Shown here piece after piece: positions 6,931 through 51,118 of a stretch of DNA of 64,000 nucleotides. Location of the stretch: NCBI RefSeq assembly GCF_026712245.1, contig NZ_JAPPUY010000001.1, positions 1,426,001-1,490,000 on the forward strand, in the 5' to 3' direction. The stretch comes from Roseateles hydrophilus (lineage in GTDB: Bacteria; Pseudomonadota; Gammaproteobacteria; Burkholderiales; Burkholderiaceae_C). Below the pieces are notes generated by a model. That model was not told where the DNA came from. It worked only from the letters and a program-made list of their open reading frames with translations, and made no database searches. Positions within the stretch are counted from its first letter, which is position 1. Each line of letters begins with the position of its first letter. A program made the position numbers and the translations under genes.

Positions 6931-7000
6931 CGAGGAACGCAAAGTTTTGTAATTCAGCCAGCCATTGCTGGATTGGCACCACAGCGCCGCCTCAACAATG

Positions 7001-7037: not shown

Positions 7038-7054
7038 CCGAGCGGACGAAGTGA

Positions 7055-9028: not shown

Positions 9029-9069
9029 GCGGACATTGTGCCGAGAGGGGCTGTGGGAAAATTGATCTC

Positions 9070-9588: not shown

Positions 9589-9612
9589 GGCCCCACACCG
9601 GCCAGAAACAGC

Positions 9613-9638
9613 AAGGGCGCCCTGGAGGCGCCCTTTTT
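9613..9638 (+). terminator. rho-independent terminator
   Basis: A 9-bp stem AAGGGCGCC / GGCGCCCTT (9613-9621, 9627-9635) with a 5-base loop and a T-run (9634-9638). It ends the slyD-like transcript; on the other strand it lies just beyond the dut stop and may act there as well. Confidence 0.88.
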
Positions 9639-9642
9639 GTCG

Positions 9643-10092
9643 TCAGGCCTTGCCGGTAGACCCGAAGCCGCCGGCACCCCGGGCCGTGGCATCGAAGCTG
9701 TCGACACGCCGGAAGGTCGCCTGCACCACCGGCACGATGACCAGCTGCGCGATGCGCTCGAAGGGCTGGATGGTGAATTCAGTCTGGCCGCGGTTCCAGC
9801 AGCTGACCATCAGCTGGCCCTGGTAGTCGCTGTCGATCAAGCCCACGAGGTTGCCCAGCACGATGCCGTGTTTGTGGCCCAGGCCCGAGCGCGGCAGGAT
9901 GAGGGCGGCCAGGCCCGGATCGGCGATGTGGATGGCCAGGCCCGTGGGGATCAGCATCGTCTGGCCCGGGGCCAGCGTGATGGCGGCGTCCAGGCAGGCA
10001 CGCAGGTCCAGGCCGGCGCTGCCGGGCGTGGCGTGCGCGGGAATCTGCTCGGCCATGCGGGCGTCGAGCACTTGCAGGTCAATCGCGTGCAT
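9643..10092 (-). CDS. dut: dUTP diphosphatase
   Basis: A 149-aa homotrimeric dUTPase that hydrolyses dUTP to dUMP and PPi, keeping uracil out of DNA and feeding dTMP synthesis. The five family motifs are in order: [32 protein letters not shown] with the catalytic Asp, FERIAQLV, and the C-terminal GAGGFGSTG that closes over the nucleotide. The start overlaps the coaBC stop (TGATG), the same coaBC-dut order as in E. coli. Confidence 0.97.
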
Positions 10093-11294: not shown

Positions 11295-11995
11295 CACTGC
11301 TTCCTGAACACCAGGTCCCACACGCCGTGGCCCAGCTTGATGCCGCGGTTCTCGAACTTGGTCAGCGGCCGGTAGGCGGGCTTGTCGGCATAGCCGGCCG
11401 CCGTGTTCTGGAGGGCCGGCTCGGCGGACAGCACTTCCAGCATCTGCTCGGCGTAAGGCTGCCAGTCGGTCGCGCAATGCAGGTAGCCGCCGGGCTTGAT
11501 GTGCTTCACCAGATTGGCCACGAACGGCGCCTGGATCAGGCGGCGCTTGTTGTGGCGCTTCTTGTGCCAGGGATCGGGGAAGAAGATGTGCACGCCGTCC
11601 AGCGCGGCTTCGCCGATCATGTCGCGCAGCACCTCCACCGCGTCGTGCTGGACGATGCGGATGTTGCCGATGTCGCGTTCGCCAATCAGCTTGAGCAAGG
11701 CACCGACGCCGGGCTCGTGGACCTCGCAACCGATGAAGTCATGGTCGGGCAGCGTCTGCGCAATGTCGGCCGTCGCCGCCCCCATGCCGAAGCCGATCTC
11801 CAGCACCAGCGGCGCGCTGCGGCCGAAGGTCGCGGCGGTGTCAAGCCGCTCGACCTTGTAGGGCAGCACGAACTTCGGGCCGAGTTCGGCCAGCGCCTTG
11901 ATCTGGCCCGTGCCCATGCGGCCGGGCCGCGTGACGAAGCTCTTGATCGGGCGGTGCAGCGGGTTCTGCGGTGGGTTGTCGTTCTGTTCGTCCAT
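11294..11995 (-). CDS. trmB: tRNA (guanine-N7)-methyltransferase
   Basis: A 233-aa SAM-dependent enzyme that makes m7G46 in the tRNA variable loop. Motif I is [16 protein letters not shown] near residue 65. The family signatures [15 protein letters not shown] (residues ~137-151) and [12 protein letters not shown] are present, as is the closing [12 protein letters not shown]. The start overlaps the deoA stop (TGATG). It sits in the middle of the nucleoside-salvage array, presumably by cotranscription rather than shared function. Confidence 0.96.
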
Positions 11996-13305
11996 CAGCC
12001 GATTGTCGCCATGACCATGGGCGCGGCGGCCACATCGGCATCGCCCAGCGCCACGGCGGCCAGGTAGGACGCGATCGCGCGGTCGGCCGCAGCCTCGTCG
12101 GCGGCATGGATCAGCGCCAGCGGTTCGCCGGCCGCGACGCGCGTACCGATGGGCTGGACGGCCGAGAAGCCGACGCGCATGTCGATGGCATCACCCGCCT
12201 GGCGGCGGCCGCCGCCCAGCTCGACGATGGCCACGCCGAGGTCGCGTGTAGCCATCGCCGTGATGACACCGGCACGCTGCGCCTTCACGGCCTTCACCAC
12301 CGGCGCGGCAGCCAGGTAGGCCTCCGGGCGCTCCATCAGATCAGCCGGGCCGCCCAGGGCCGTCACCATCTGGGCGAACTTCTCGGCAGCGGCGCCGGAG
12401 TCCAGCGCGGCCTGCAGCTTCACGCGGGCAGCAGCCGTGTCCGGGGCCAGCTTGCCCAGCACCAGCATCTCGGCGCACAGCGCCAGCGTCACCTCGTGCA
12501 GACGCGGCTCGCGGTGCTCGCCACTCAGGTAGCGGATGGTCTCCCACACCTCCAGCGCGTTGCCGACATCGGTGCCCAGGATCTGGTTCATGTCGGTGAT
12601 CAACGCGCGCGTCTTCAGGCCCGCACCGCCGGCCACCGCCACGATGCTCTCGGCCAGCTCCTGCGCGAAGGCGGGTGTGGACGCGAACGCGCCGTTGCCG
12701 CACTTGATGTCCATCGCCAGGCATTCCAGGCCGGCCGCCAGCTTCTTGGACAGGATGGACGCCGTGATCAGCGGCACGCTCTCGACCGTGGCCGTCACGT
12801 CACGCGTGGCGTAGAAGCGCTTGTCGGCGGGCGCCAGGTCGGCCGTCTGGCCGATGATGGCGCAGCCCAGCGAGCGCACGAGCTGGTCGAAGCGCGCCGG
12901 GTCGGGCGTGGTCGTGTAGCCGGGGATGGCTTCGAGCTTGTCCACCGTGCCGCCGGTGTGGCCCAGACCACGCCCGGCAATCATGGGCACATAGCCGCCG
13001 CAGGCCGCCACCATGGGCGCCAGCATCAAGCTCACCTTGTCGCCCACGCCGCCGCTGCTGTGCTTGTCCAGCACTGGGCCGGGCATGTCGGGCCAGCGCA
13101 TGACGCGGCCGGAATTCATCATCGCGCGCGTCAGCAGCACGGCTTCGTCACGGCCCATGCCCTTGAGGAACACGGCCATGCCCAGCGCAGCGACCTGGCC
13201 TTCGCTCCAGGAGTTGTCGACGAGGCCACGGACGAAATGGTTGATTTGCGCTTCGTTCAGCGCCTGGCCGTCGCGCTTGGTGCGGATGATTTCTTGGGCA
13301 AGCAT
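11995..13305 (-). CDS. deoA: thymidine phosphorylase
   Basis: A 436-aa enzyme that splits thymidine and deoxyuridine with phosphate into base and deoxyribose 1-phosphate. The family signature is intact: [14 protein letters not shown] near residue 80 binds phosphate, with [19 protein letters not shown] and the [10 protein letters not shown] motif. The length matches E. coli DeoA (440 aa). It lies 9 bp downstream of deoC, so the two handle successive parts of deoxynucleoside catabolism. No phosphopentomutase (deoB) is present nearby. Confidence 0.95.
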
Positions 13306-13314
13306 GGGAGGAGT

Positions 13315-14079
13315 TCAGTAAGCCGCCTGGGTGGCGGTGGAGGCCGCGCCGGCAAGCACGGCCTCGATGTCGGTCAGCAGGCCGCTGGCGCCGAAACGCA
13401 GGCGCTGCGGGTTCAACGCGGCAGCGCCGAGCGCGGCTTCGGCCTGGGCGATGTAGCCGGCGGCGTCGGCCACCGAGCGCACGCCGCCCGAAGCCTTGAA
13501 GCCGGCCGACGGCAGGCCGCTGGCCTGGATTTCCTTCAGCATCACGGCGGCCGCGGCCGCCGTGGCGCCGGTAGCGGTCTTGCCGGTGCTGGTCTTGACG
13601 AAGTCAGCCCCGGCCGCCAGCGCCAGGCGCGTGGCCTGGGCGATGCGCTCGGGCGTGGCCAGTTCGCCGGATTCGATGATGACCTTCAGCGTCAGCGGGC
13701 GCGACGCGAAGCGGACTTCTGACAGGAACTCGGCGACCTCGGTGGACTGCCCGGCCTGCAGGGCGCGCCAGGGCAGCACGACGTCGACCTCATCACCGCC
13801 GGCCTGCGCGATGGCGGCCACGTCGGCTAGGGCGCGCGGCACATCCAGCGCGCCGTCGGGGAAGTTGGCCACGGCAGCCACCTTGATGGTGGCCGGCAAC
13901 GCCGCGCGCGCCTGCGCCACGAAGCGCGGCCACACGCAGACAGCGGCGACCGGGCCGTGCGCGGTCTGCGCGCGGCGGCACAGCGCGTCGATGTCCGCGA
14001 CGGTGTCGCCGTCATTCAGACTGGTGAGGTCCAGACAGGCCAGCGCCGTGCGGGCCGCCGCCTTCAGGTCCTGGCTCAC
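13315..14079 (-). CDS. deoC: deoxyribose-phosphate aldolase
   Basis: A 254-aa class I aldolase that cleaves 2-deoxyribose 5-phosphate to glyceraldehyde 3-phosphate and acetaldehyde. The Schiff-base lysine lies in DFVKTSTGKT, and the second active-site lysine in GFKASGGVR. DEVDVVLPW carries the family acidic residue. I choose the GTG at 14079, which overlaps the punA stop (GTGA) and gives SQDLKAAARTALACLDLTSLN as N-terminus; the frame is open further inside punA. Confidence 0.93.
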   Translation of the reverse strand: MSQDLKAAARTALACLDLTSLNDGDTVADIDALCRRAQTAHGPVAAVCVWPRFVAQARAALPATIKVAAVANFPDGALDVPRALADVAAIAQAGGDEVDVVLPWRALQAGQSTEVAEFLSEVRFASRPLTLKVIIESGELATPERIAQATRLALAAGADFVKTSTGKTATGATAAAAAVMLKEIQASGLPSAGFKASGGVRSVADAAGYIAQAEAALGAAALNPQRLRFGASGLLTDIEAVLAGAASTATQAAY

Positions 14080-14912
14080 AGCGCCACGCCCTTCAGGCTG
14101 GCCACCAGCGCGGCCAGGAAGGCCGACGCGCGCTCGCCGGAGGCCTGGGCCTGCTTCAGGGTCAGGTCGTGCGTCAACGCCTCGGCGGACAGGCCGGCGG
14201 CCATGTTGGTCATCAGCGCGATGCCCATCACCTTCAGGCCGGCATGGCGGGCCAGGATGGTCTCGGGCACGGTGCTCATGCCCACGGCGTCGGCGCCCCA
14301 GGCGGCGAACATGCGGATCTCGGCCGGGGTCTCGAACTGCGGGCCGAGCGCCCAGCAGTAGGTGCCCTCGCCCAGCATCAGGTTCTCGCGCTTGGCCAGC
14401 GCCAACGCGTGCTTGCGCAGCTCGCCGTCGTAGGCGTTGACCATGTCGACGAAGCGGTGGCTGCCCTGCTCGCCGACGAGCGGGCTGCGCTGCGGCGCGT
14501 TGATGTGGTCGGCGATCAGCATCAGGCTGCCCGGCGGCATGTGGCCGCGCAGCGAGCCGGAGGCGTTGGTCTGCACCAGCAGCTTGACGCCCCAGCGCTT
14601 CAGCGTGCGCAGCGCGCCGGCCATGCCGGTGCACTCACCGCTCTCGTAGGTGTGGGCGCGGCCGCGCAGGAAGATGACACGCTGCTCGCCGATCTGGCCG
14701 ACGACGATCTCGTTGACGTGACCTTCCACCTTGGGCTGCGGGAAGGCGGGCAGCTCGGTGTAAGGCAGGTTCTTGCCGTCCTGCACATGGCTGACGGCGC
14801 CGGCCCAGCCAGAGCCCAGCACCACGGCGACTTCCGGCGCGCTGCCGAACAGGGATTGCAGCTTGTCGACGCTCGCGCTGATGGCGACGTCGAGGGTCTT
14901 GTTGTCGATCAT
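14076..14912 (-). CDS. punA: purine-nucleoside phosphorylase
   Basis: A 278-aa trimeric-type PNP that phosphorolyses purine (deoxy)nucleosides. Motifs are VVLGSGWAG for phosphate binding near residue 30, the phosphate-site histidine in RGRAHTYES, and YCWALGPQFETPAEIRM with the catalytic Glu. MSTVPE and the base-binding Asn in MTNMAAG are also present. Length and order match low-molecular-mass PNPs (PunA/XapA/Pnp class). It follows cdd by 9 bp and overlaps deoC. Confidence 0.93.
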   Translation of the reverse strand: MIDNKTLDVAISASVDKLQSLFGSAPEVAVVLGSGWAGAVSHVQDGKNLPYTELPAFPQPKVEGHVNEIVVGQIGEQRVIFLRGRAHTYESGECTGMAGALRTLKRWGVKLLVQTNASGSLRGHMPPGSLMLIADHINAPQRSPLVGEQGSHRFVDMVNAYDGELRKHALALAKRENLMLGEGTYCWALGPQFETPAEIRMFAAWGADAVGMSTVPETILARHAGLKVMGIALMTNMAAGLSAEALTHDLTLKQAQASGERASAFLAALVASLKGVAL

Positions 14913-14921
14913 GGGGGAACC

Positions 14922-15338
14922 TCAGAAATTCAAGTGGGATGGCCCGAAGCTGTGGGGCAGCAGTTCGGCCAGGGTCCAGCGTTGGCGGATGCCGCCAGGA
15001 TCGCCGGCAATGATGACCAGCTCGTCGGGCTCGGAGAACTCCCGGAGCTTCTGGCGGCAGCCGCCGCAGGGCGTGATGATGTCCGGGCCGGGGCCCGTCA
15101 CCAGCGCCGCCACGGCGCGCTTGCCGCCGGCCATGAGCATGGCCGTCAGCGCCGAGGGTTCGGCGCACCAGCCCTGCGGGTAGGACGCGTTCTCCACGTT
15201 GGCACCGATGTGGATGCGGCCCTGCTCGTCCAGCAGCGCGACGCCGACCTGGTACTTGGAATAAGGCGCATGCGCAAAGCTGCGCGCACGCAGCGACTCT
15301 GCCAGCAGGCGATCCAGCAGATCCTGGGACAGGTCCAT
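14922..15338 (-). CDS. cdd: cytidine deaminase
   Basis: A 138-aa homotetrameric zinc enzyme that deaminates cytidine and deoxycytidine to (deoxy)uridine. The zinc motifs are CAEPSA (Cys plus catalytic Glu) and PCGGCRQ. Substrate-binding YSKYQVGVALL and GANVENASYPQGWCAE are also intact. The ATG at 15338 overlaps the stop of the upstream permease gene (TGATG), tying deamination directly to nucleoside import. Confidence 0.95.
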   Translation of the reverse strand: MDLSQDLLDRLLAESLRARSFAHAPYSKYQVGVALLDEQGRIHIGANVENASYPQGWCAEPSALTAMLMAGGKRAVAALVTGPGPDIITPCGGCRQKLREFSEPDELVIIAGDPGGIRQRWTLAELLPHSFGPSHLNF

Positions 15339-16312
15339 CAGCGCTCCTTCACGTAGGGCCGGCCCAGCGCCTTGGGCGCGATGGCGGAGCCGATGAAGCC
15401 GGCCAGCAGCACGACGGTCAGGAGGTAGGGCAGCGCCTGGATGAGCTGCACCGGCACCTCGCCACCGCCCAATCCAGCGGGCAACTGCACACCCTGCATG
15501 CGGATGGCCACCGCGTCCAGGAAGCCGAACAGCAGGCAGGCGCCCATCGTCGGCAGCGGCTTCCACTTGCCGAAGATCATCGCAGCCAGCGCAATGAAGC
15601 CGCGGCCGGCGGTCATGTTGGGCGAGAAAGACGCGTTTTGCGCAAGCGTCAGGTAGGCACCGGCCAGGCCGCACAGCACGCCGTTCATCAGCAGCGCCTG
15701 GTAGCGCAGCCCCTGCACGGACAGGCCTGCAGCCTCCACCATGGCCGGGTTCTCGCCCACGGCGCGCAGGCGCAGGCCCGGGCGCGTGCGCTCCAGGAAG
15801 AACCACACGGCCAGCACCATCAGGAAGGCCACATAGACCAGCCCGTTGTGGCTCAGCAGGCCATGGCCCAGCACCGATGCGATCCAGTCACCCGCCTGCG
15901 GCTCGGCAAAGGCCGGCGCGAGCGCCGTCAGGCGCACATCGGGCGTGATGGGCGGCGTCTGGCCGCCCTGCTGGAACCAGGCGATGCCCAGCACCACGGT
16001 CAGCCCGGCCGCCACCATGTTGAGCGCCACACCGGAGACGACCTGGTCGCCCCGGTTGGACACGCAGGCGAAGCCATGCACGAGTGAGGCCGAACAGGCC
16101 ACCACCATGGCCGCCAGCAGCCCGAAGGCGGCCGACTGCGTCACCGACGCCGTGGCAGCCGCCGCAAACGCGGCGAACAGCATCTTGCCTTCCAGCCCGA
16201 GGTCAACCACGCCAGCCCGCTCGGACAGCACGCCAGCCATCGCGCACAGCAGCAGCGGCGCACTGACGCGCAACGTGGAGGCCAGCACCGAGGCGATCAG
16301 CACTTCATCCAT
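15338..16312 (-). CDS. nucleoside ABC transporter permease 2 (NupQ/YufQ-like)
   Basis: A 324-aa integral membrane permease of the BPD_transp_2 family with about 8-10 hydrophobic segments. It is paired with the larger permease upstream. Typical segments are GVLSERAGVVDLGLEGKML near residue 28, RAVGENPAMVEAAG (the EAA-like coupling loop), and GRGFIALAAMIFGKWKP. The layout is that of the Bacillus NupNOPQ and streptococcal RnsABCD guanosine/nucleoside importers. Start ATG at 16312 overlaps the preceding stop. Confidence 0.9.
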   Translation of the reverse strand: MDEVLIASVLASTLRVSAPLLLCAMAGVLSERAGVVDLGLEGKMLFAAFAAAATASVTQSAAFGLLAAMVVACSASLVHGFACVSNRGDQVVSGVALNMVAAGLTVVLGIAWFQQGGQTPPITPDVRLTALAPAFAEPQAGDWIASVLGHGLLSHNGLVYVAFLMVLAVWFFLERTRPGLRLRAVGENPAMVEAAGLSVQGLRYQALLMNGVLCGLAGAYLTLAQNASFSPNMTAGRGFIALAAMIFGKWKPLPTMGACLLFGFLDAVAIRMQGVQLPAGLGGGEVPVQLIQALPYLLTVVLLAGFIGSAIAPKALGRPYVKER

Positions 16313-33275: not shown

Positions 33276-34007
33276 ATGATTGACTGGCTCGACGACGCCT
33301 CGCTGGACTTCCCGCCCACCACCCGCGCGCTGGGGCCCGACACCGACGCCCCCGGCCTGCTGGCCGCCGGCGGCACGCTGACGCCGCAGCGCCTGGCGGC
33401 CGCCTACCGGCGCGGCATCTTCCCCTGGTATGGCCCCGGCCAGCCGCCGCTGTGGTGGGCGCCCGACCCGCGCATGGTGCTGAAGACGGCGGACTTCAAG
33501 CTGTCGCGCTCGCTGCGCAAGACGGTGCAACGCTTCATCGCCACGCCCGGCTGCGAGATCCGCGTGGACTTCAATCGCGCCGCCGTGCTGCAAGCATGCG
33601 CCGAGACGCCGCGCGATGGCCAGAACGGCACCTGGATCGTGCCCGAGCTGCAGGCGGCCTACCTGGCCTGGCCGGCGCTGCACAGCGTCGAGACCTGGAT
33701 GGACGGCGAACTCGTCGGCGGCCTCTACGGCGTCAACCTCGGGCGCATGTTCTATGGCGAGTCCATGTTCATGCGCCGCACCGACGCCTCCAAGATCGCG
33801 CTGTGCGCGCTGATCTGCCTGTGCCGCGAGGCCGGCATCCCGTGGATAGATTGCCAGCAGAACACCGGCCATCTGGCCTCGCTCGGCGGCGCTGAAGTGC
33901 CGCGCTCGGCTTTCGAGGCCCACCTGGCCGCCCATGTCGACCAGCCCCGCCCCACGGCCTGGACCTATCATCCCGACCACTGGCACCGGCTTTTCGACCC
34001 TTCGTGA
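33276..34007 (+). CDS. aat: leucyl/phenylalanyl-tRNA-protein transferase
   Basis: A 243-aa enzyme of the N-degron pathway that moves Leu or Phe from tRNA to proteins with N-terminal Lys or Arg, marking them for ClpAP. Family motifs are [26 protein letters not shown] (residues ~25-50), [46 protein letters not shown] and the late [13 protein letters not shown]. An ATG at 33267 would add three residues. The stop overlaps the bpt GTG start (GTGA). Confidence 0.95.
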
Positions 34008-34747
34008 CCCACCCCAAAGAACTGCCCCTCGCGCAGATCCAGTTCTACGCCACGGCGGCCTACCCGTGCAGCTATGTGCCGGGCCGCCAGGCGCGCTCGC
34101 AGGTGGCCACACCCAGCCACCTGATTCACGCCGACGCCTACTCCAACCTCGTCGCCACCGGCTTTCGCCGCAGCGGCCTGTTCACCTACCGGCCGTATTG
34201 CGACCAGTGCCGCGCCTGCGTGCCGCTGCGTGTGCCGGTTGACCGCTTCGAGCCCAACCGCTCCCAACGCCGCGCCTGGAAGGCGCACAGCCCGCTGCAG
34301 GCCAAGGTCATGCGGCTGGGCTACTCACCGGAGCATTACGCGCTGTACCTGCGCTACCAGGCCGGCCGTCACAGCGGCGGTGGCATGGACCACGACAGCG
34401 TCGACCAGTACACCCAGTTCCTGCTGCAAAGCCGCATCAACTCGCGGCTGGTGGAGTTCCGCGAGCCCCTGCCCGACGGCCAATCCGGTCCCGGGCCGCT
34501 GCGCATGGTGTCCATCCTGGACATCCTCAACGACGGCATCTCGGCGGTCTACACCTTCTACGACCCCGACATCGACGCCAGCTACGGCACCTACGGCGTG
34601 CTGTGGCAGATTCAGCAGGCCAAGGAGCTGAAGCTCAGCCATGTCTACCTGGGCTACTGGATCGCCGAGAGCCCCAAGATGGCCTACAAGTCCGGTTTCC
34701 TGCCGCACCAGATTCTGCAGAACGGCAGCTGGATCGACGTGAGTTGA
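34004..34747 (+). CDS. bpt: aspartate/glutamate leucyltransferase (arginyltransferase family)
   Basis: A 247-aa ATE1-like transferase that puts Leu on proteins starting with Asp or Glu, the second arm of the bacterial N-degron pathway. Family signatures are the N-terminal Cys in [17 protein letters not shown], the cysteine cluster [13 protein letters not shown] near residue 65, and the C-terminal [16 protein letters not shown] with the YWI motif of [14 protein letters not shown]. Start is GTG at 34004, overlapping aat, so both transferases are made together. Confidence 0.93.
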
Positions 34748-34757: not shown

Positions 34758-36020
34758 TCAGACCAGCACCTCGACGCAGCCGGGGTGGCCCAGGAAGCCC
34801 TCAGGGCTCGCGCTGCGCCCATAGGCACCGCTCTGGTAGACGACGGCCAGATCGCCGATCTCGCCCTTGGCCATGTCCATGCGGTCGGCCAGCAGGTCCA
34901 GCGGCGTGCACAGCGGGCCGACGACGCTGGCAGCTTCGGTCACCGTCTCGCGCCGGCCTTGCGGCTCGACCGACGCCGGGTAGTTCTTGCGCAGCACCTG
35001 GCCGAAGTTGCCGGACGCCGACAGATGATGGTGCAGGCCACCATCGGCCACCAGGAACACCTGGCCGCGCGACAGCTTGCGGTCGACGATGCGGCTCACG
35101 TAGACGCCCGCCTCGCCGACGAAGTAGCGCCCCAGCTCGATGACCAGCTTGGCGGCCGGCAGATCGGTCTTGGCGCGCGCCTGCAGCGCGGTGAGGTTGT
35201 CGGCGATGGGCGCCAGGTCCAGCCGCGTCTCGCCCGGGAAATACGGGATGCCGAAGCCGCCACCCAGGTTCAGGAACTTGACCGGCGCAGGCGCCGCCTC
35301 GGCCAGTCGCAGCGCCAGTTCGTAGCTCTTGAGCTGCGCCTCGCAAATGGCCTCGGCTTTCAGGTTTTGCGAGCCGGCGAACAGGTGGAAGCCTTCGAAG
35401 GCCAGACCATCGCCGCTCAGCCGACCGACCTCGGCCAGCACCTCGGGCAGCGCCTCGGCGTCGATGCCGAACTGCTTGGGGCCGCCACTCATGCGCATGC
35501 CCGAGCCCTTGAGCTCGAAGTCCGGGTTCACGCGCAGCGCGACGCGCGCCGGCAGCCCCAGCCGCTGCGACGCGCGCGCCAGCGGCGCCAACTCACGCGC
35601 CGATTCCACGTTGACCAGCACGCCAGCAGCAACCGCCTGGCCCAGCTCGATGTCGCGCTTGCCGGGGCCGGCGAAGCTGATCTCGTGCGGGTCCGCGCCA
35701 GCATTCAGCGCCACCTGCAGCTCACCGGCCGAGGCCACGTCGATGCCGTCCACCAGCCCGGCCATCAGCTGCACCAGCGCCGGCATGGGGTTGGCCTTCA
35801 TCGCGTAATGCAGCTCGATGCCCTGCGGCAGCGCCGCGCGCAGCTCGGCCACGCGCGCCTGCAACAGGCCACGGTCATAGGCGTAGAACGGCGTTTGGCC
35901 GACGCGCTCGGCCAACACCGACAGCCGCTGGCCGCCGACGAGCAGCTCGCCAGCGGCATCACGGGAGAACAGGACGGGCGCGTGTTCCAGCGCGCGCTTG
36001 GGGGCAATGGGTTCGCTCAT
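34758..36020 (-). CDS. PLP-dependent decarboxylase, exosortase-A-associated
   Basis: A 420-aa fold-type III PLP enzyme related to diaminopimelate and ornithine decarboxylases, matching the exosortase-A-associated subfamily (TIGR03099 type). The PLP lysine is in LHYAMKANPMP; the phosphate-binding loop is GGGFGIPYFPGE, with HLFAGSQNL and ELGRYFVGEAG. The substrate-side Cys of LysA-type enzymes appears in VGPLCTPLDLL. The substrate is unknown. It overlaps the AMP-ligase gene by four bases, so ligase and decarboxylase are translated together, implying that the activated and the decarboxylated molecule are linked. Confidence 0.88.
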   Translation of the reverse strand: MSEPIAPKRALEHAPVLFSRDAAGELLVGGQRLSVLAERVGQTPFYAYDRGLLQARVAELRAALPQGIELHYAMKANPMPALVQLMAGLVDGIDVASAGELQVALNAGADPHEISFAGPGKRDIELGQAVAAGVLVNVESARELAPLARASQRLGLPARVALRVNPDFELKGSGMRMSGGPKQFGIDAEALPEVLAEVGRLSGDGLAFEGFHLFAGSQNLKAEAICEAQLKSYELALRLAEAAPAPVKFLNLGGGFGIPYFPGETRLDLAPIADNLTALQARAKTDLPAAKLVIELGRYFVGEAGVYVSRIVDRKLSRGQVFLVADGGLHHHLSASGNFGQVLRKNYPASVEPQGRRETVTEAASVVGPLCTPLDLLADRMDMAKGEIGDLAVVYQSGAYGRSASPEGFLGHPGCVEVLV

Positions 36021-37606
36021 GCGGCGTTTCGTTCTAGCCAGTCAGTCGACAGCGTCTTGCGGTCGATCTTGCCGTTGGGGTTGCGCGGCAGCGGGCCGCT
36101 GCGCGGGTCGATGCCGTGCGGCACCATGTAGGCCGGCATGCGCGCCTTGCAGGCGGCGATCAGCGCGGTGAGGTCCAGCTCGGCGGCGCCGTCGGGCGGC
36201 GTTGCGATGACCTGGATGCTCTGGCCCAGTGTGTCGTGATGAACGCCGAAGGCCACGCATTCGCCGACCAGGCCGGTCGCGTACAGCACCTCCTCGACCT
36301 CGGTCGGGCTCACGCGGTAGCCCGAGGTCTTCATCATCTCGTCGCGGCGGCCGACGAAGTACAGGAAGCCTTCGGCATCGCGCTTGACCGTGTCGCCGGA
36401 GAACACGGCGAACTCAGGCAGCTGCAGGCCGCCTTCACGCCCGCCGACGCCGACGGGCAAGGGCTTGTAGCGCTCGGCCGTCTTCTCGGCGTCGTTCCAG
36501 TAGCCCAGGCCCACCAGCGCGCCGCGGTGCACCAGTTCGCCCGGCTCGTCGGGCGCGCATTCGCTGCCATCCTCGCGCAACACGAGGATCTCGGCGTTCG
36601 GAATGGCCTTGCCGATGGAGTCGGGCCGGCGGTCCACTTCCTCGGGCGGCAGGTAGGTGGAGCGGAAGGCCTCGGTCAGCCCGTACATCAGGAAGGGCTT
36701 GGCCGACGGCGCCCTGGCGCGCAGCAGATCCAGCGTCGCCCGCGGCATGCGGCCGCCGGTGTTGGCGAAGTAGCGCAGGTGCTGGTCGATGGCGGCCGGC
36801 CATTCCAGCTGCGTCAGCTGGATGTAGAGCGGTGGCACGGCAGTCAGGCCGGTGACGTGCTCGCGCTCCATCGCCTTCAGCACATCCTTGGGCAGCAGGT
36901 AGTTCAGCAGCACGACGCGCGCGCCGCTGTGGAAGGCGGTGGTGAGCTGGCTGAAGCCGGCGTCGAAGGACAGCGGCAGCGCCGCCAGCAGCGTGTCGCT
37001 GGCGCGGTTCTCCAGATAGCTCGCCACGCTCTTGCCGCCGGCCACCATGTTACGGTGGGACAGCACCACGCCCTTGGGCCGGCCGGTCGAGCCGGACGTG
37101 TAGAGGATGGCCGTCATGTCCGTGTCGATGACGCGGTGGCCGGTGCGGGCGGGCGACGCCAGCAGCGCAGCCCAGTCGTGCACTGGCACCGGTGCGGAAC
37201 CCGCACCGCTGGTCAACACCACATGGCGCAGCGACGGGCATTGCGTGAGCACCTCGCCCAACTGCGCCAGCCGCTCCGGCGACGTGACGAGCACGCGAAC
37301 ATCGCAGTCACGCAGGATGAAGCCCACCTGATCGGGCTTGAGCAAGGGGTTCAGCGGCACGAAGACCCCGCCTGCGGCCGGCGCGCCAAAGCTGGCCACG
37401 ACCGTCTCGAAGCGCTTCTCCAAGTAGATCGCCACCCGCTCGCCACGCCCGACGCCAAGGCCCACCAGGCCGCTGGCAAACCCGGCAACGGCTGCGCCCA
37501 GTGCGGCGTAGCTCAGCGTGGCGCCGCCATAGGTCAGCGCCGGGGCATCGGGCGAGCGCTCGGCAGCGACGGACACCAACTCATGAAGCAGCGTGGATTC
37601 AGGCAT
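36017..37606 (-). CDS. AMP-forming acyl-CoA ligase, exosortase-A-associated
   Basis: A 529-aa ANL-superfamily adenylating enzyme (TIGR03098 type). Core motifs are TAILYTSGSTGRPKGVVLSH near residue 175, MYGLTEAFRSTYLP, the hinge region FLYFVGRRDEMMKTSGYRVSP and the C-terminal catalytic lysine in NPNGKIDRKTL. It activates a carboxylic or amino acid as an adenylate and loads it onto CoA or, more likely here, onto the carrier protein encoded divergently. I use the ATG at 37606, since the extra upstream codons look noncoding. 122 bp separate it from the carrier gene, probably a shared divergent promoter region. Confidence 0.88.
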   Translation of the reverse strand: MPESTLLHELVSVAAERSPDAPALTYGGATLSYAALGAAVAGFASGLVGLGVGRGERVAIYLEKRFETVVASFGAPAAGGVFVPLNPLLKPDQVGFILRDCDVRVLVTSPERLAQLGEVLTQCPSLRHVVLTSGAGSAPVPVHDWAALLASPARTGHRVIDTDMTAILYTSGSTGRPKGVVLSHRNMVAGGKSVASYLENRASDTLLAALPLSFDAGFSQLTTAFHSGARVVLLNYLLPKDVLKAMEREHVTGLTAVPPLYIQLTQLEWPAAIDQHLRYFANTGGRMPRATLDLLRARAPSAKPFLMYGLTEAFRSTYLPPEEVDRRPDSIGKAIPNAEILVLREDGSECAPDEPGELVHRGALVGLGYWNDAEKTAERYKPLPVGVGGREGGLQLPEFAVFSGDTVKRDAEGFLYFVGRRDEMMKTSGYRVSPTEVEEVLYATGLVGECVAFGVHHDTLGQSIQVIATPPDGAAELDLTALIAACKARMPAYMVPHGIDPRSGPLPRNPNGKIDRKTLSTDWLERNAA

Positions 37607-37728
37607 GGACGGGGGGCAGATCAGAGTGAAAAAAGTATCGCACGCGCCCCCGAGCACAAGGGGTGAACGCCCCGGGCGCCAGGAGTGGCGCGGCTAAACT
37701 GCGCGGCTGCTTTTTTGGACCTCCCAGA
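37607..37728. promoter_or_regulatory. divergent promoter region of the carrier/ligase module
   Basis: The 122 bp between the ligase start (minus) and the carrier-protein start (plus) are the only place where both arms of the module can begin. A run of six T's lies at about 37711-37716, just 5' of the carrier gene. I cannot single out reliable -35/-10 boxes, so this is a location call only. Confidence 0.4.
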
Positions 37729-37986
37729 ATGGATAACGCCCAGGTGCTCGGCCATGTGCTGAGGCTTCTCGATGACGTGCTCAGCCTGAACGGCCGCGCC
37801 CAGACCTTCACCCGCGACACGGCGCTGCTGGGCGCACTGCCCGAGTTGGACTCCATGGCCGTGGTCAGCCTGATCGCCGGCTTGGAGGAGCAACTGGGCC
37901 TGGTCGTTGACGATGACGACATTGATGGCGACACCTTTGCCACCGTGGGCTCGCTGGCCGACTTTGTTGCGGCCCGACTGGGTTGA
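37729..37986 (+). CDS. acyl carrier protein-like (PP-binding) domain protein
   Basis: An 85-aa stand-alone carrier protein. The phosphopantetheine attachment site is the Ser42 of PELDSMAVVSL, in the expected helix-II start, and the acidic C-terminal half (EEQLGLVVDDDDIDGDTF) is typical. It should be primed by a 4'-phosphopantetheinyl transferase encoded elsewhere. Its position, divergent from an adenylating ligase and coupled to two hydrolase-fold genes, suggests it carries the ligase product. The stop overlaps the TTG start of the next gene. Confidence 0.88.
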   Translation: MDNAQVLGHVLRLLDDVLSLNGRAQTFTRDTALLGALPELDSMAVVSLIAGLEEQLGLVVDDDDIDGDTFATVGSLADFVAARLG

Positions 37987-38786
37987 CCACCCGGCCTGAC
38001 GTCTTCTTCCTGCCCGCCGCGAACGGCGAGCAGCGGCTGTGCCTGTTCCACGCGCCAGCCGGCGCGCCGCGCAGCCGCATTCTCTATCTGCACCCTTTTG
38101 CGGAAGAGATGAACAAGTCGCGCCGCATGGTGGCCCTCACCTGCCGCGCGCTCGCCGCGGCCGGACATGCCGTGCTGCAGATCGACCTGCGTGGCTGTGG
38201 CGATTCGTCGGCCGACTTCGGCGACGCGAGCTGGGCCGACTGGCAAGACGATGTTCGCCTGGGCCTCGCCGAACTTGACCGGCGTGTGCCCGCCGGCCCG
38301 CTGTGGCTGTGGAGCCTGCGCGCTGGTGCGTTGCTCGCAGCCGCCGACTGGGGCCGCCCGGTGAACCACCTGTTCTGGCAGCCCATGGCCAGTGGCAAGC
38401 TGATGCTGCAGCAGTTCCTGAGGCTGAAGCTGGCGGCCGAGATGGCTGGCGGCGCGAGCAAGGGCCTGATGGAACAGCTGAAAGGCGAGTTGGCCGCCGG
38501 CCGCAGCGTCGAGGTGGCGGGCTACGTGCTCGGCGCCTCGCTGGCGAATGGGCTGGCATCGGCCACGCTTGCACCATCCGGCCCGCCAGGTCGGCTGGCG
38601 TGGCTGGAGTTGAGCAACCGCGAGGACGCGACGCTGATGCCAGCCAGTGAGCAGGCGGTCACCAAGTGGCGTGACGCGGGCTGGGCAACGCAAGCGCTGG
38701 TCGTGCCCGGCCCCGGCTTCTGGGCCACCACCGAGATCGAGATTGCGCCTGCCCTGATCGAACGCACCCTGGAGGCCGTGGCATGA
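37983..38786 (+). CDS. alpha/beta-hydrolase-fold protein, 'hydrolase 2' of exosortase-A systems
   Basis: A 267-aa protein matching the exosortase-A-associated hydrolase 2 family (TIGR03101 type). It opens VFFLPAANGEQRLCLFHAP and has LYLHPFAEEMNKSRRM (oxyanion-side loop) and QIDLRGCGDSS. At the nucleophile elbow the sequence is LWLWSLRAGALLA, with Arg113 where Ser, Cys or Asp is expected. No His stands at the usual C-terminal position (PGPGFWATTEIEIAP). It may therefore be a non-catalytic or unusual hydrolase-fold partner. The start is a TTG overlapping the carrier-protein stop (TTGA). Confidence 0.85.
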   Translation: MTTRPDVFFLPAANGEQRLCLFHAPAGAPRSRILYLHPFAEEMNKSRRMVALTCRALAAAGHAVLQIDLRGCGDSSADFGDASWADWQDDVRLGLAELDRRVPAGPLWLWSLRAGALLAAADWGRPVNHLFWQPMASGKLMLQQFLRLKLAAEMAGGASKGLMEQLKGELAAGRSVEVAGYVLGASLANGLASATLAPSGPPGRLAWLELSNREDATLMPASEQAVTKWRDAGWATQALVVPGPGFWATTEIEIAPALIERTLEAVA

Positions 38787-39670
38787 AGGAGCAGGTGCTG
38801 AACTTCCCCTGCGAGGGCGAGCACCTGGTGGGCATCCTGGCCGAGCCCGAGCCACACGATTGCCCCGCAGCAGACGTCGGCGTGCTCATCATCGTCGGCG
38901 GCCCGCAATACCGCGCCGGCAGCCACCGGCAGTTCACGTTGCTGGCGCGTCACCTCGCGAGCCAAGGCTTCACAACCATGAGGTTCGACTACCGGGGCAT
39001 GGGGGACAGCGATGGGGATGCGCGCGATTTCCTACAGATTCCCGCGGACATCGACGCTGCAATCGGCGCGCTGATGGCGGCGCGACCAGGGCTGCGCCGG
39101 GTTGTGCTGTGGGGCCTGTGCGATGCGGCCTCGGCAGCACTGCTGTACGCACGCGAGCACGCAGACCCGCGCGTCGCCGGGCTGGCGCTGGCCAACCCTT
39201 GGGTCCGATCGGCCCATACGCTGGCGGCCACCCATGTCAAGCACTACTACGGCCGCCGCGTGCTGCAACGTGACTTCTGGCTCAAGCTGCTGCGCGGCGG
39301 CGTTGGCGCGGCCGCGCTGACCGGCGCCATTCGCAACCTGATGCTGACACTGCGTCGCGCTGGCGCCGCGCCGGCCCTGAGCTTCCAGGCCCGGATGGCC
39401 GCCTGTCTGACCCAGCCCCCCGTGCCAATGCTGCTGCTGATCAGCAGCGAAGACTTGACGGCCAGAGAGTTCAGCGACATGTTCCCGCCTGCCCGGCTTG
39501 GGAGCGACGATATCGCCCTCATCGACCGACAGTCGATCCAGGGGGCTGACCACACGTTCTCCCAGGCCCTACACCACCGCACTGTGTTCGCCCTGACCGT
39601 AGGCTTCCTCGGCCGGTTAGCTACTGGGCCAGTCACGCCCCAAAGACTCGCTGAAGGACGCCCCCAATGA
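38783..39670 (+). CDS. alpha/beta hydrolase, 'hydrolase 1' of exosortase-A systems
   Basis: A 295-aa hydrolase of the exosortase-A-associated hydrolase 1 family (TIGR03100 type). The oxyanion region is LIIVGGPQYRAGSHRQF; MRFDYRGMGDSDGD follows. The nucleophile elbow is LWGLCDAASAALL with Cys113, as in dienelactone-hydrolase-like enzymes, and the catalytic His is likely in QGADHTFSQALH. It could release or transfer a thioester-bound group from the carrier protein. Coupled to hydrolase 2 (ATGA) and to the TPR gene (ATGA). Confidence 0.87.
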   Translation: MKEQVLNFPCEGEHLVGILAEPEPHDCPAADVGVLIIVGGPQYRAGSHRQFTLLARHLASQGFTTMRFDYRGMGDSDGDARDFLQIPADIDAAIGALMAARPGLRRVVLWGLCDAASAALLYAREHADPRVAGLALANPWVRSAHTLAATHVKHYYGRRVLQRDFWLKLLRGGVGAAALTGAIRNLMLTLRRAGAAPALSFQARMAACLTQPPVPMLLLISSEDLTAREFSDMFPPARLGSDDIALIDRQSIQGADHTFSQALHHRTVFALTVGFLGRLATGPVTPQRLAEGRPQ

Positions 39671-40332
39671 AGTCCCGCGCACGACTCGCTCTTGCGACGC
39701 TGCTGACCAGCCTGGGAACCGCCGCGGCTGCGCAACCCGCGTGCCCGCAGTTCACGTTCGTCAAGCAGGCAGGTGCGTTCGGCCCGGAGGACTACCGCGG
39801 CCACCGACAGAAAGCCTTGGTGGAGGACTTCCATTTCACAGCCGACGTCGAGAATTTGCGGCGCGGCAAATCCGGCACAGTCGGCAGTGACATCGCCTAC
39901 ACGCTGTCGGTGTTTCCGAATCACCCCCGCGCGCTGATCGCCGCGGATCGCTACGCCCAAAAAGAGAAGGCAGTGATACCGGAGGGCCTCAAGTACACGC
40001 CCGAGTGCTACTACGAGCGTGCGCTGCAGTTCCGCCCAGACGATCACCCTGTTCGCCTGCTCTACGCGCTGCTGCTGCTCCGCAACAAGCAGACCGAACT
40101 TGCCCTGCAGCACGCGAGCTATGTCGAGACAAACTCGCTGGACAACCCGTTCACGCAACACAACGTCGGGCTGATCTACCTGGACATGGGGCAGATCGAC
40201 AAGGCGGTGGAGGCGGCCCGGCGCGCCTATGAACTCGGCGCACCACAGCCTTTGCTGCGTGAACGCCTGCAAGCCATGGGACGCTGGCCCGAGCCCACAG
40301 CAACGCCCCCCGGAGCGAGCGCACCGCAATGA
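39667..40332 (+). CDS. exported TPR-like protein
   Basis: A 221-aa protein with a cleavable signal peptide (MKSRARLALATLLTSLGTAAAAQ) and at least two tetratricopeptide-like repeats in the C-terminal half: CYYERALQFRPDDHPVRLLYALLLL and HNVGLIYLDMGQIDKAVEAARRAY (the latter close to consensus). A Pro/Ala-rich end follows. It is likely a periplasmic scaffold for polymer assembly or export, though a partner is not evident. The start overlaps hydrolase 1 (ATGA), tying it to the module. Confidence 0.75.
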   Translation: MKSRARLALATLLTSLGTAAAAQPACPQFTFVKQAGAFGPEDYRGHRQKALVEDFHFTADVENLRRGKSGTVGSDIAYTLSVFPNHPRALIAADRYAQKEKAVIPEGLKYTPECYYERALQFRPDDHPVRLLYALLLLRNKQTELALQHASYVETNSLDNPFTQHNVGLIYLDMGQIDKAVEAARRAYELGAPQPLLRERLQAMGRWPEPTATPPGASAPQ

Positions 40333-48231: not shown

Positions 48232-48326
48232 ACGCCGTCCACACACCCGTTGCGCCAGCCACCACCGCGACCGGCGCGTATGGAGGCTCCCGCTGCCCGC
48301 ACGACCTGAACCTGCCCCTGCCATGA
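48228..48326 (+). CDS. possible 32-aa peptide bridging flippase and acyltransferase
   Basis: ATG at 48228 overlaps the flippase stop (ATGA) and its own stop overlaps the next gene's ATG at 48323 (ATGA). The peptide is Ala/Thr/Pro-rich (MNAVHTPVAPATTATGAYGG at its start) with one Cys and no hydrophobic segment. I know no family. It may be a real microprotein or only a coupling device that carries ribosomes across the 91-base gap. Confidence 0.35.
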   Translation: MNAVHTPVAPATTATGAYGGSRCPHDLNLPLP

Positions 48327-49426
48327 CCGTCGGCTCCGCACAGATCGACACCTTCCACCGCGTGCAGGATCTACCCGACGATGCCCGGGCCCTGATGGCG
48401 CTTGCCGAACAGCGCCACATCGAGTTTGGCGCCGACTGGCATGCCAACCTGCTTGAGCAGGTCTACGCACTCGAGCCACAGCAGCACACCGTGGCACTCC
48501 ACGTGCTCCGTCGCGACGGCCGCACCCTCGCAGTACTGCCCACGGTGCTTCACGTTGGCAGCATGGGCAAGGAACTCAGCGCGCTGTCAAACTTCTACAC
48601 GGCCATCTACGCACCTGCCTTGGCCACCGGCACGAGCGCGCAAGACCTGGCCCCCCTGGTTACTGCCGTGCGAAAGCTGTCCCGAGCCGCCACATACCGC
48701 TTTTCTCCGATGGACCCGGCCTCACACGAGTTCGCGATCCTCAAACAGGCGCTCCAGCTGGCAGGGCTGAGCACCCACGCGTTCTTCGCCTTCGGCAACT
48801 GGTTCCAGCCTGTCACGCAGACCTGGGCTGACTACCTCCAAGACCGCAGCAGCCAGGTGCGCAACACGATCAAGCGCAACGCCAAGAAGTTCGCGACGGC
48901 CGGAGGGCGGCTGGAGATCATCACCGGCGGCGATGCCTTGGAGGCCGGCCTCGCCGCTTACCAACAGGTGTATGGGCGCAGTTGGAAAGTCCCCGAGCCC
49001 TACCCCGGTTTTATCCCGGGACTCATCCGCCTATGCGCTCGACGCGGCTGGCTGCGGTTGGGGCTGGCCTGGCTGGGTGACAAACCAGTCGCCGCACAGA
49101 TCTGGATTGTGGCCAACCGGCGTGCCGACATCTACAAGCTGGCCTACGACGAGGAACACAAGGCGCTCGCCCCGGGCACACTGTTGACCGCTGCGTTGAT
49201 GGAACGCGCCATCGACACGGATCAGGTGCTCGAGATCGACTACCTGATCGGCGATGACCCGTACAAGGCCACCTGGATGAGCCAGCGCCGAGAGCGGCAC
49301 GGCCTGATCGCCTACGACCCGCTGACGCTGCGCGGCCTGGCCGGCCTGGCGCGCCACCTCCTGGGCAAGGCCGTCAAACGGCTGCGCTCGCCAGCCCCTC
49401 CACCGGCAGACAATCACGCCGCCTGA
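48323..49426 (+). CDS. GNAT/FemAB-like acyltransferase
   Basis: A 367-aa protein with the tandem GNAT fold of the Acetyltransf_6/BioF2-like/FemAB group. The second half is diagnostic: SSQVRNTIKRNAKKFATAGG (basic helix near residue 180), then VYGRSWKVPEPYPGFIPGLI and WLGDKPVAAQIWIVANRRAD, followed by LAYDEEHKALAPGTLLT. These enzymes transfer acyl or aminoacyl groups; in exopolysaccharide clusters they probably acylate amino sugars. I start at 48323, as upstream frame lies inside the flippase. Confidence 0.8.
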   Translation: MTVGSAQIDTFHRVQDLPDDARALMALAEQRHIEFGADWHANLLEQVYALEPQQHTVALHVLRRDGRTLAVLPTVLHVGSMGKELSALSNFYTAIYAPALATGTSAQDLAPLVTAVRKLSRAATYRFSPMDPASHEFAILKQALQLAGLSTHAFFAFGNWFQPVTQTWADYLQDRSSQVRNTIKRNAKKFATAGGRLEIITGGDALEAGLAAYQQVYGRSWKVPEPYPGFIPGLIRLCARRGWLRLGLAWLGDKPVAAQIWIVANRRADIYKLAYDEEHKALAPGTLLTAALMERAIDTDQVLEIDYLIGDDPYKATWMSQRRERHGLIAYDPLTLRGLAGLARHLLGKAVKRLRSPAPPPADNHAA

Positions 49427-49441: not shown

Positions 49442-51118
49442 ATGCAAGCCCACGACCTGCCACCCGATACGCCATTCGCCGCCGGCACCCCCCGCTTCAA
49501 CGCGCCCGCAACCGATGCACTGGCGGCCTGGCAACAGGCCTACGCCAGCCGTGGCGCAGGCTGTGCAGCGGATGTCGGTGGCGAGTTCGCCGCGGCGCTG
49601 GATCTTCCGGGAGGCGGGACCTACTTGGCCGTCGACCGGTTCGCCGTGCACAGCCTGTGCTATGCGGTGCAGGACGGTCGCCTGCACTACGCGACGCGCG
49701 CCGACGTGCTGGCGCGGCGGCTGGGCATCCGCGAGTTGGACCCACAGGCGCTGTTCGACTACCTGTTCCACCATTGCATCCCGTCGCCACGCACGATCTA
49801 CGCGGGAATCCACCGCCTCCCCCCTGCACACTACGCCCTGTTCGAGCAGGGCCAGCTGCGCGTGGCGCCTTACTGGACGCCACGCTTCGACGAACAGCCC
49901 GCACCCAACTTTGACTCGTTGCGCGACGAGTTCCGCGACATCCTGCGCGACGCGGTCAAGCAGCGGCTGACGGGTGACGGCAAGACGGCCTGCTTCCTGA
50001 GTGGCGGCACCGACAGCTCCACGGTGGCCGGCCTGCTGCGCGAAACCACGGGCCAGGCGCCGGCCAGCTACTCCATCGGCTTCGAGGCTGAGGGCTATGA
50101 CGAGATGGCCTACGCCCGCATCGCGGCCAAGGCCTTCGGCGCCGACCACCATGAGTACTACGTGACGCCGGCCGACCTCGTGAAGGCGATTCCCGACGTC
50201 GCCGCGCACTACGACCAGCCCTTCGGCAACTCCTCCGCCGTGCCCGCCTTCTACTGCGCACGCAAGGCGCATGACGACGGCTACACGCGGATGCTGGCGG
50301 GCGACGGGGGCGACGAGCTGTTCGGCGGCAACGTGCGCTATGCCAAGGAGCGCGTGTTCCATGTCTACAGCCAGGTGCCGTCAACGCTGCGCGCTGGCGT
50401 GCTGAACCCGCTGTTCCTGAACCCGCTGACCGGCAACATCCCGCTGTTGAAAAAGGGCACCAGCTACATCCGCCAGGCACGCGTGCCCATGCCCGACCGC
50501 ATGCAGAGCTACAACCTGCTGGACCGGCTGGGCCTGCGCGACGTGCTGACGCCAGGCTTCCTGGCCGCTGTGGACACGCAGGCACCACGCGAGCACCAGC
50601 GCGCCACCTGGGCCAGCGGACCGCAGCAGGCCAGCCTCGTCAACCAGATGCTGGCCTTCGACTGGCGCTACACGCTGGCGGAGAACGACCTGCCCAAGGT
50701 CGTCGGCACCACGGCGCTGGCCGGCGTGGACGTGAGCTTCCCGCTGCTTGACACACGCCTGCTGGATTTCTCTCTGAAACTGCCCACCGCCTACAAGCTC
50801 AAAGGCCTGAAGCTGCGCTGGTTCTTCAAGGAGGCGCTGCGCGGCTTCCTGCCCGACGAGATCCTGACCAAGAAGAAGCACGGCTTCGGTCTGCCCTTCG
50901 GCCCCTGGGCCGTCAAGGATGCTGCGCTCAATGCGCTGGCCGCCGAGTCGCTGCGAGGCGTGGCTGCCCGCGGCATCGTGCGCCCCGAGTTTGTCGAAAG
51001 CCTGCTGACCCGCCGCCTCAAGGAGCATGCAGGCTACTACGGCGAGATGGTGTGGATACTGATGATGCTTGAGCAGTGGCTGCGCAAGCATGCACCCGAC
51101 TACCGAATCGCCGCCTGA
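49442..51118 (+). CDS. asparagine-synthase homologue without glutaminase cysteine
   Basis: A 558-aa protein whose C-terminal synthetase domain is intact: PPi loop FLSGGTDSSTVAG (residues ~185-197), YDQPFGNSSAVPAFY, MLAGDGGDELFGGN and LTKKKHGFGLPFG. The N-terminus starts MQAHDLPPDTPF with no Cys2 and no GPDD or NGEIYN motifs. Thus it cannot hydrolyse glutamine itself and should use free ammonia, another protein's ammonia, or an amine nucleophile. It could form an amide on a sugar acid with an unusual amine. Distinct from both the plus-strand AsnB and the minus-strand XrtA-type copy. Confidence 0.85.
   Translation: MQAHDLPPDTPFAAGTPRFNAPATDALAAWQQAYASRGAGCAADVGGEFAAALDLPGGGTYLAVDRFAVHSLCYAVQDGRLHYATRADVLARRLGIRELDPQALFDYLFHHCIPSPRTIYAGIHRLPPAHYALFEQGQLRVAPYWTPRFDEQPAPNFDSLRDEFRDILRDAVKQRLTGDGKTACFLSGGTDSSTVAGLLRETTGQAPASYSIGFEAEGYDEMAYARIAAKAFGADHHEYYVTPADLVKAIPDVAAHYDQPFGNSSAVPAFYCARKAHDDGYTRMLAGDGGDELFGGNVRYAKERVFHVYSQVPSTLRAGVLNPLFLNPLTGNIPLLKKGTSYIRQARVPMPDRMQSYNLLDRLGLRDVLTPGFLAAVDTQAPREHQRATWASGPQQASLVNQMLAFDWRYTLAENDLPKVVGTTALAGVDVSFPLLDTRLLDFSLKLPTAYKLKGLKLRWFFKEALRGFLPDEILTKKKHGFGLPFGPWAVKDAALNALAAESLRGVAARGIVRPEFVESLLTRRLKEHAGYYGEMVWILMMLEQWLRKHAPDYRIAA

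Follow-up and report, generated by a model that had tools for sequence, protein, structure and literature searches.

A gene module of exosortase-A loci that may load an acidic amino acid through its side chain and decarboxylate it on a carrier protein

A five-gene module and its proposed reaction

The window analyzed here is a 64,000-nucleotide stretch of Roseateles hydrophilus DNA (G000:C1:1426001-1490000) that contains, at positions 34758-39670, a module of five genes encoding an adenosine monophosphate (AMP)-forming ligase, a pyridoxal phosphate (PLP) decarboxylase, a stand-alone carrier protein, and two hydrolase-fold proteins. On balance, we lean toward a reading in which aspartate is loaded through its side chain, decarboxylated on the carrier to beta-alanyl-carrier, and transferred toward the exosortase-A polymer. 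Four families named after exosortase A and an unnamed carrier would thereby gain one concrete reaction, namely aspartate side-chain loading followed by on-carrier decarboxylation. The families themselves had already been named, and what is new here is the likely chemistry of the module.

In the proposed scheme, the ligase would adenylate an acidic amino acid, most likely L-aspartate, at the side-chain carboxyl and pass it to the carrier's phosphopantetheine; in the pocket, the alpha-amino group would be held by Asp215 and the alpha-carboxyl by an invariant Arg. The decarboxylase would then take the free alpha-carboxyl off the tethered amino acid to give beta-alanyl-S-carrier, or gamma-aminobutyryl-S-carrier if glutamate were the substrate. 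Hydrolase 1, which has a Cys-Asp-His triad, would move the group toward an acceptor in the exosortase-A exopolysaccharide, probably together with the nucleophile-less hydrolase 2, and a GNAT enzyme may take part in many genomes. The same three parts occur in the VinN/VinL/VinO and Bol sets described below, whose products are beta-aminoacyl carriers, and this suggests aspartyl-carrier and then beta-alanyl-carrier as intermediates. That hydrolase 1 carries out the transfer and that a polymer accepts the group are proposed because of the triad and the co-occurrence with exosortase A. Aspartate rather than glutamate, hydrolase 1 as the transferase, and the polymer as the acceptor are accordingly put forward with less support than the two preceding steps.

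The presence, order, coupling, family membership, active-site residues, and co-occurrence of the module genes were read from the sequences themselves. The features are as follows:

34758..36020, minus strand: PLP decarboxylase, TIGR03099 (596.4 bits; cut-off 478.45)
36017..37606, minus strand: AMP-forming ligase with VinN-like pocket, TIGR03098 (771.7 bits; cut-off 592.35)
37607..37728, no strand: divergent intergenic region of 122 bp between the ligase ATG (37606) and the carrier ATG (37729)
37729..37986, plus strand: stand-alone carrier, 85 amino acids, Ser42 in LDSM (PF00550, 25.0 bits; cut-off 20.8)
37983..38786, plus strand: hydrolase 2, TIGR03101, TTG start (267.4 bits; cut-off 202.75)
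38783..39670, plus strand: hydrolase 1, TIGR03100 (298.6 bits; cut-off 168.45)

The decarboxylase and ligase open reading frames have 4 bp in common on the minus strand, and the carrier, hydrolase 2, hydrolase 1, and a tetratricopeptide repeat (TPR) protein follow each other on the plus strand with successive 4-bp overlaps. A preliminary description of this DNA had reported the ligase/decarboxylase overlap, the 122-bp gap, the LDSM serine, and the two coupled hydrolase-fold proteins, and all its coordinates agree with ours; it had also assigned the four non-carrier proteins to the TIGR03098/3099/3100/3101 families, and all four score above the curated cut-offs and are thus members. All four models are of the 'hypoth_equivalog' type, and their names refer to the exosortase context and otherwise say no more than ligase, decarboxylase, or hydrolase. 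A simple scan of the gap at 37607..37728 gave no sigma-70-type site.

The arrangement was then followed in a near set, composed of the best 80 of 440 ligase relatives in genome contigs, some of which stop early; the closest relatives by name belong to Pelomonas and Roseateles. The carrier was present in all 80 near loci, on the strand opposite to the ligase in 79 and less than 400 bp away in 71. A phmmer match to the decarboxylase was found in 79/80 (78 at a stricter threshold), and in 65 the decarboxylase adjoins the ligase on the same strand. The carrier, hydrolase 2, and hydrolase 1 were all found in 66 loci, being contiguous in 54 of these. Since it recurs across the 80 near loci, the gene arrangement is beyond chance.

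The ligase has a VinN-type pocket

When the ligase core (window 36200-37000) was compared with solved structures, chains 3WVN and 3WV4 ranked above nonribosomal peptide synthetase (NRPS) and coenzyme A (CoA)-ligase chains. The entries carry a generic molecule name, and we take them to be VinN. Read in this way, an offset of 16 places Asp, Ser, Lys, and Arg at VinN positions 230, 299, 330, and 331, where the window ligase has Asp (Asp215 from ATG 37606), Thr, Phe, and Arg. It thus carries the Asp230 and Arg331 pair that marks side-chain-carboxyl adenylating enzymes of the VinN/FlvN/BolO type. All four pocket positions are identical to the window ligase in 80 of 81 near rows, the other row being a 187-residue fragment (L047), and Asp, Ser/Thr, and Arg are found in all 29 over-cut-off ligases of the wider set (28 fetched plus the window). 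The position of VinN Ser299 holds Thr in the window ligase and its near relatives and Ser in many wider members. Among 25 sub-cut-off rows, read by eye, Asp was seen in 22, Arg in 25, and Ser/Thr in 20. The other AMP-ligases of the genome, 6 of 11 of which could be aligned, had Asp in 0/6 and Arg in 1/6, the latter in a gappy stretch.

The role of the VinN-type pocket residues is described together with the BolO/BolC/BolN set (PMC7756342, excerpts). The VinN-type residues therefore favor an acidic amino acid activated through its side-chain carboxyl, and side-chain loading by this ligase is inferred by homology. The idea of a small ligase-carrier-decarboxylase line making an amine-bearing group, already present in the preliminary description, is hence supported and sharpened to a particular class of substrate and a particular carboxyl. 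TIGR03099 was over cut-off in all 29 genomes with an over-cut-off ligase.

Three distant ligases (L167, L169, and L170, family f51) have a VinN-like CKR motif in genomes lacking a TIGR03099 match at 1e-80, and these enzymes perhaps carry out side-chain loading without decarboxylation. Genes lying between ligase and decarboxylase at other loci were also inspected: the nine frames scanned in seven loci comprised one GNAT (L041), a sugar-nucleotide dehydrogenase, a solute-binding protein, a diguanylate cyclase, a weak methyltransferase match, and four frames without a family.

The decarboxylase is closer to BtrK than to LysA

A phmmer comparison with solved structures indicated BtrK (7RU7/2J66) as the nearest relative of the decarboxylase (262 bits), whereas the best LysA (2P3E, Aquifex) scored 164 bits; identity was 38.5% to BtrK and 32.6% and 28.6% to two LysA proteins. 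These three sequences were aligned with 34 family and nine sub-cut-off rows, VinO and BolN being left out. Eighteen family-conserved positions were common to BtrK and absent from both LysA, while three were common to both LysA and not BtrK. The CE[ST] motif is LysA-defining, and the family has CTP at this place (GPLCTP). In the corresponding tree, the two LysA stood apart from all other rows (support 100/99) and TIGR03099 formed one group (support 99/99), so that with one BtrK and two LysA, all on long branches, the decarboxylase grouped with BtrK and not with LysA.

BtrK decarboxylates BtrI-S-glutamate (PMC7857480, excerpts), and this kinship therefore favors decarboxylation on the carrier over decarboxylation in solution. 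The preliminary description had allowed for either a free or a tethered amino acid; the tethered option is thereby favored and the free one disfavored. On-carrier decarboxylation by a BtrK-type enzyme would be the counterpart, by homology, of side-chain loading by the ligase. LysA-like lysine synthesis was ruled out by the motif, the tree, and the presence of a true LysA elsewhere in the genome.

The carrier and the two hydrolase-fold proteins

The serine of the LDSM motif (Ser42 from ATG 37729) is kept in 107 of 108 aligned carriers. The nearest solved chain of the carrier is 2LKI (68 bits); none of the NCBIfam carrier models matched it above cut-off, and neither the carrier nor the GNAT protein matched any exosortase-A-associated 'hypoth_equivalog' model.

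Hydrolase 1 has a Cys113-Asp224-His257 triad. Of 91 aligned rows, 88 have Cys at the elbow, two have Arg (possibly hydrolase 2 picked wrongly), and one has a gap, while Asp224 and His257 are kept in all 88 rows with a letter there (three gaps). At the elbow of hydrolase 2, in the place of a Ser or Cys nucleophile, Arg113 was found in 96/96 rows, together with Glu42, Asn44, and Arg47, each also in 96/96. Predicted models with mean predicted local distance difference test (pLDDT) values of 87.6 for hydrolase 1 and 94.1 for hydrolase 2 place Cys113 in the turn after strand 106-112 and Arg113 in the turn after strand 107-112, respectively, and Foldseek retrieved general esterases, lipases, and similar alpha/beta hydrolases for both. 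Lacking the expected nucleophile at this site, hydrolase 2 is probably not a hydrolase. Of the two hydrolases named in the preliminary description, the first thus retains a conserved triad, whereas the second probably loses its title. The TIGR03101 cut-off was passed in only 8/60, and the carrier-adjacent hydrolase 2 of many loci of family f45 scored low.

Co-occurrence with exosortase A

The distribution of the module was examined in a phylum sample (n=398 genomes) and an order sample (n=399 genomes; up to three ligase candidates scored per genome), in both of which the genomes are related to one another. The phylum sample contained 29 genomes with the ligase over cut-off and 35 with exosortase A over cut-off, 26 having both. 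The search for hydrolase 1 covered 140 of these genomes: 53 with a ligase match at 1e-120, seven with exosortase A over cut-off and no such ligase match, and 80 with neither. Hydrolase 1 was over cut-off in 26/26 genomes with both partners, 0/3 with ligase only, 0/7 with exosortase A only, and none of 24 with a sub-cut-off ligase match. The 80 genomes without a ligase or exosortase A match gave no hydrolase 1 match, and control genomes gave none in either hydrolase 1 search of this sample; 8 of 10 single-partner genomes had no match even at 1e-12. In one genome with exosortase A and the decarboxylase (G126), hydrolase 1 scored 166.0, just under the cut-off of 168.45. TIGR03099 was over cut-off in the 29 ligase genomes and G126 but in 0/7 exosortase A-only genomes.

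In the order sample, exosortase A was found in 98 genomes, the ligase in 74, and both in 62. Hydrolase 1 was searched in 80 genomes, covering 25 of these 62, and was present in 22/25 with both, 4/36 with exosortase only, 3/11 with ligase only, and 0/8 with a sub-cut-off partner. Several of these genomes were inspected more closely. The ligase of G438 is interrupted by a contig end, so that this genome belongs with those having both, and at least one of the genomes counted as ligase-less thus has a ligase. In G476, G509, and G688, the carrier, hydrolase 2, and hydrolase 1 stand together, and the region retrieved shows no ligase. Polymer genes of the exosortase type occur in G593 and G676, the former also giving a weak exosortase match, and G758 is 64% complete. 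Among genomes with ligase and exosortase A that lacked hydrolase 1, the contig of G520 stops just after hydrolase 2, and only ligase and GNAT are found in the stretch fetched from G466. Within one genus (g11), hydrolase 1 was present in 3/3 tested genomes with both partners and 0/6 with ligase only. The co-occurrence of the five genes, proposed as a check in the preliminary description, thus holds for the module as a unit, whereas exosortase A often occurs without a ligase hit (36/98 in the order sample).

One locus outside this pattern (L136 in G107, 6626-15433) contains the ligase, the decarboxylase, and the carrier, yet neither exosortase A nor hydrolase 1 is over cut-off in its genome; adjoining genes encode a glycosyltransferase, a polysaccharide deacetylase, and a protein with a weak match to O-antigen ligase.

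Genomic setting

The exosortase A gene lies at 63911-65485 in continued window numbering and is read from 65485 back, so that its last 90 bases are inside the window; its TIGR03109 match (336 bits) begins 670 bp beyond the window end. It is followed by a glycosyltransferase, FemAB (TIGR03019), a deacetylase, an ATPase, an outer-membrane protein, a tyrosine kinase, and chain-length and export genes. Inside the window, the same system is represented by an O-ligase (TIGR03097), an amidotransferase (TIGR03108, 1035 bits), and TIGR03088. With exosortase A and its companion genes nearby, the module lies in an exosortase-A system. The FemAB, deacetylase, kinase, and export genes were considered as module parts and rejected, being located in the exosortase cluster. 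Two further genes outside the module were followed:

39667..40332, plus strand: TPR protein, 4-bp overlap with hydrolase 1; accessory and lineage-limited
48323..49426, plus strand: GNAT protein, PF13480 (112.8 bits); candidate sixth component and acyltransferase

TPR homologues were found in 45/80 near loci and in 1/25 wider ligase-positive exosortase loci. An arginyltransferase gene (34004-34747; NF002341, 379 bits) directly adjoins the decarboxylase; its homologue is present in 13/80 near loci, and it is therefore probably a chance neighbor. The GNAT gene is adjoined by one for an asparagine-synthase-like protein (49442-51118, PF00733), whose amidotransferase-model match starts only from about position 106, so that much of the glutaminase half seems to be missing. 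A second exosortase-like gene (G000:C1:202112-202888, L002) occurs elsewhere in the genome and scores 157 bits to TIGR03109, below cut-off.

Discussion

Several observations weigh against the proposed aspartate pathway. First, VinN Ser299 and Lys330 are replaced by Thr and Phe in the window ligase. Second, BtrK acts on glutamate, so that the longer acid is a possible substrate here as well. Third, BtrK and both LysA sit on long branches and the exact position of BtrK is unsure, so only the LysA split was used from the tree. Fourth, because the four TIGR models take their names from the exosortase context, some of the co-occurrence may be built in, although 8 of the 10 single-partner genomes of the phylum sample lack a hydrolase 1 match even at 1e-12. 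Fifth, hydrolase 1 is missing from G493 although the ligase, the decarboxylase, the carrier, and exosortase A are all present, which makes this genome a real exception within what was inspected. Sixth, a TIGR03100-type hydrolase has been reported in a Burkholderia cenocepacia polymer cluster with no ligase or decarboxylase among the listed genes (PMC3584217, excerpts). The last point, a GNAT-carrier fusion, favors the GNAT protein over hydrolase 1 as transferase and belongs to the most serious alternative.

In that alternative, loading and tethered decarboxylation are unchanged, but the transfer falls to the GNAT protein or to the exosortase-linked FemAB, likewise a PF13480 protein, and hydrolase 1 is a thioesterase that edits or releases; we regard this as a real possibility, albeit on the less probable side. 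Editing is a frequent role of alpha/beta hydrolases in natural-product pathways. A GNAT homologue was found within 10 kb on either side of the ligase in 21/80 near loci. Such a homologue separates the ligase from the carrier in nine f45 loci and in L182, separates it from the decarboxylase in L041, and adjoins it in L192 and L193. One of the nine f45 loci, L144 (G127), has a single open frame of 442 codons that covers both GNAT and carrier (7672-8997, minus strand) and in which PF13480 (166-294) and PF00550 (364-434) are both over cut-off; a Met at the junction makes separate starts possible, and it is the sole shared frame among 11 wide GNAT hits. The varied adjacency and the shared frame suggest a functional link between GNAT and the module. 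Nevertheless, a GNAT homologue adjoins a module gene in only 5/80 near and 10/53 wide loci, the window GNAT is about 10 kb from the module, and hydrolase 1 is nearly constant in genomes with ligase and exosortase A.

A further possibility, rather unlikely in our opinion, is that the module makes a small released molecule, such as a signal or metallophore, instead of a polymer decoration. Related three-gene sets do serve antibiotics and lipopeptides (PMC11284099 and PMC7756342, excerpts), and at L163 (G185, 8992-14563) a sub-cut-off ligase and decarboxylase stand in a row with a B12/radical SAM protein, a weak match to a carrier, and an acetyltransferase of the AAC(3) type (PF02522), which is a three-gene core with a different acyltransferase. 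Hydrolase 1, however, is found mainly where exosortase A occurs, and no NRPS or polyketide synthase gene was recognized among the window genes scanned (from about 34 kb onward).

That the decarboxylase acts on a free amino acid, like LysA or ornithine decarboxylase, with the ligase separately loading an amino acid or amine-derived acid, is quite doubtful: its 223.6 bits to the LysA model TIGR01048 speak for such an activity, yet the score is below the cut-off of 297.9, which excludes LysA membership, a separate LysA over cut-off is encoded elsewhere in the same genome, and the motif and BtrK kinship point the other way. Finally, an acyl-CoA or fatty-acyl ligase that serves to attach a fatty or hydroxy acid to a lipid or polymer, to which the family name and the scores to the long-chain fatty acid ligase model (276 bits, versus 257 to amino acid adenylation) would point, is very hard to credit and was ruled out as the ligase identity on pocket residues, given the VinN-type Asp and Arg in every aligned over-cut-off ligase (pair in 0/6 other AMP-ligases of the genome) and the PLP decarboxylase in 29/29 ligase genomes.

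If the aspartate pathway is true, antibiotic assembly-line chemistry also serves an environmental polymer and protein-sorting system, amine groups are predicted on the polymer, and a possible exosortase acceptor is offered. FemAB enzymes build the amine on lipid II for sortases. By analogy, and as a long shot, beta-alanyl amines on the exosortase-A exopolysaccharide or a lipid-linked repeat might be the nucleophile accepting PEP-CTERM proteins cut by exosortase A, making them a Gram-negative counterpart of that amine. Such a role cannot be general, because exosortase A occurs without the module (e.g. the seven genomes without TIGR03099), and it would hold only for exosortase-A genomes carrying the module.

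Comparison with known systems

No prior proposal of this reaction was found in the titles and abstract openings of the open-licence papers retrieved for exosortase, PEP-CTERM, and the TIGR families. The main text of the 2006 PEP-CTERM paper (PMC1569441) contains none of the terms sought, and excerpts of a floc paper on a PEP-CTERM strain (PMC9850573) contain no carrier, decarboxylase, or hydrolase terms. A Ramlibacter exopolysaccharide that bears an amino acid (lysine on glucuronate; PMC9658432, excerpts) showed no link to the module and was not used.

Three systems resemble the module. Butirosin BtrK/BtrI provides the nearest solved decarboxylase relative and a carrier-bound amino acid as substrate; it differs in that this substrate is glutamate. 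The butirosin loading enzyme, BtrJ, belongs to another superfamily. VinN/VinL/VinO and FlvN, of the beta-amino-acid macrolactams, share with the module an adenylating enzyme, a stand-alone carrier, and a PLP decarboxylase acting on the carrier thioester, and in VinN/VinL/VinO thioester formation must precede decarboxylation (PMC11284099, excerpts). They differ at VinN Lys330 (Phe in the window ligase); a second adenylating enzyme, a dipeptidyl transferase, or a polyketide synthase was not recognized among the window genes scanned, no genome-wide search having been made. BolO/BolC/BolN of bolagladin biosynthesis in Burkholderia gladioli likewise combine an AMP ligase with VinN-type Asp230/Arg331, a stand-alone carrier, and a BtrK-like decarboxylase, and a bolN deletion was not rescued by feeding beta-alanine (PMC7756342, excerpts). 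The Bol set feeds an NRPS and BolO has Ser299 where the window ligase has Thr, whereas the module has two hydrolase-fold partners and is part of an exopolysaccharide locus of the exosortase-A type.

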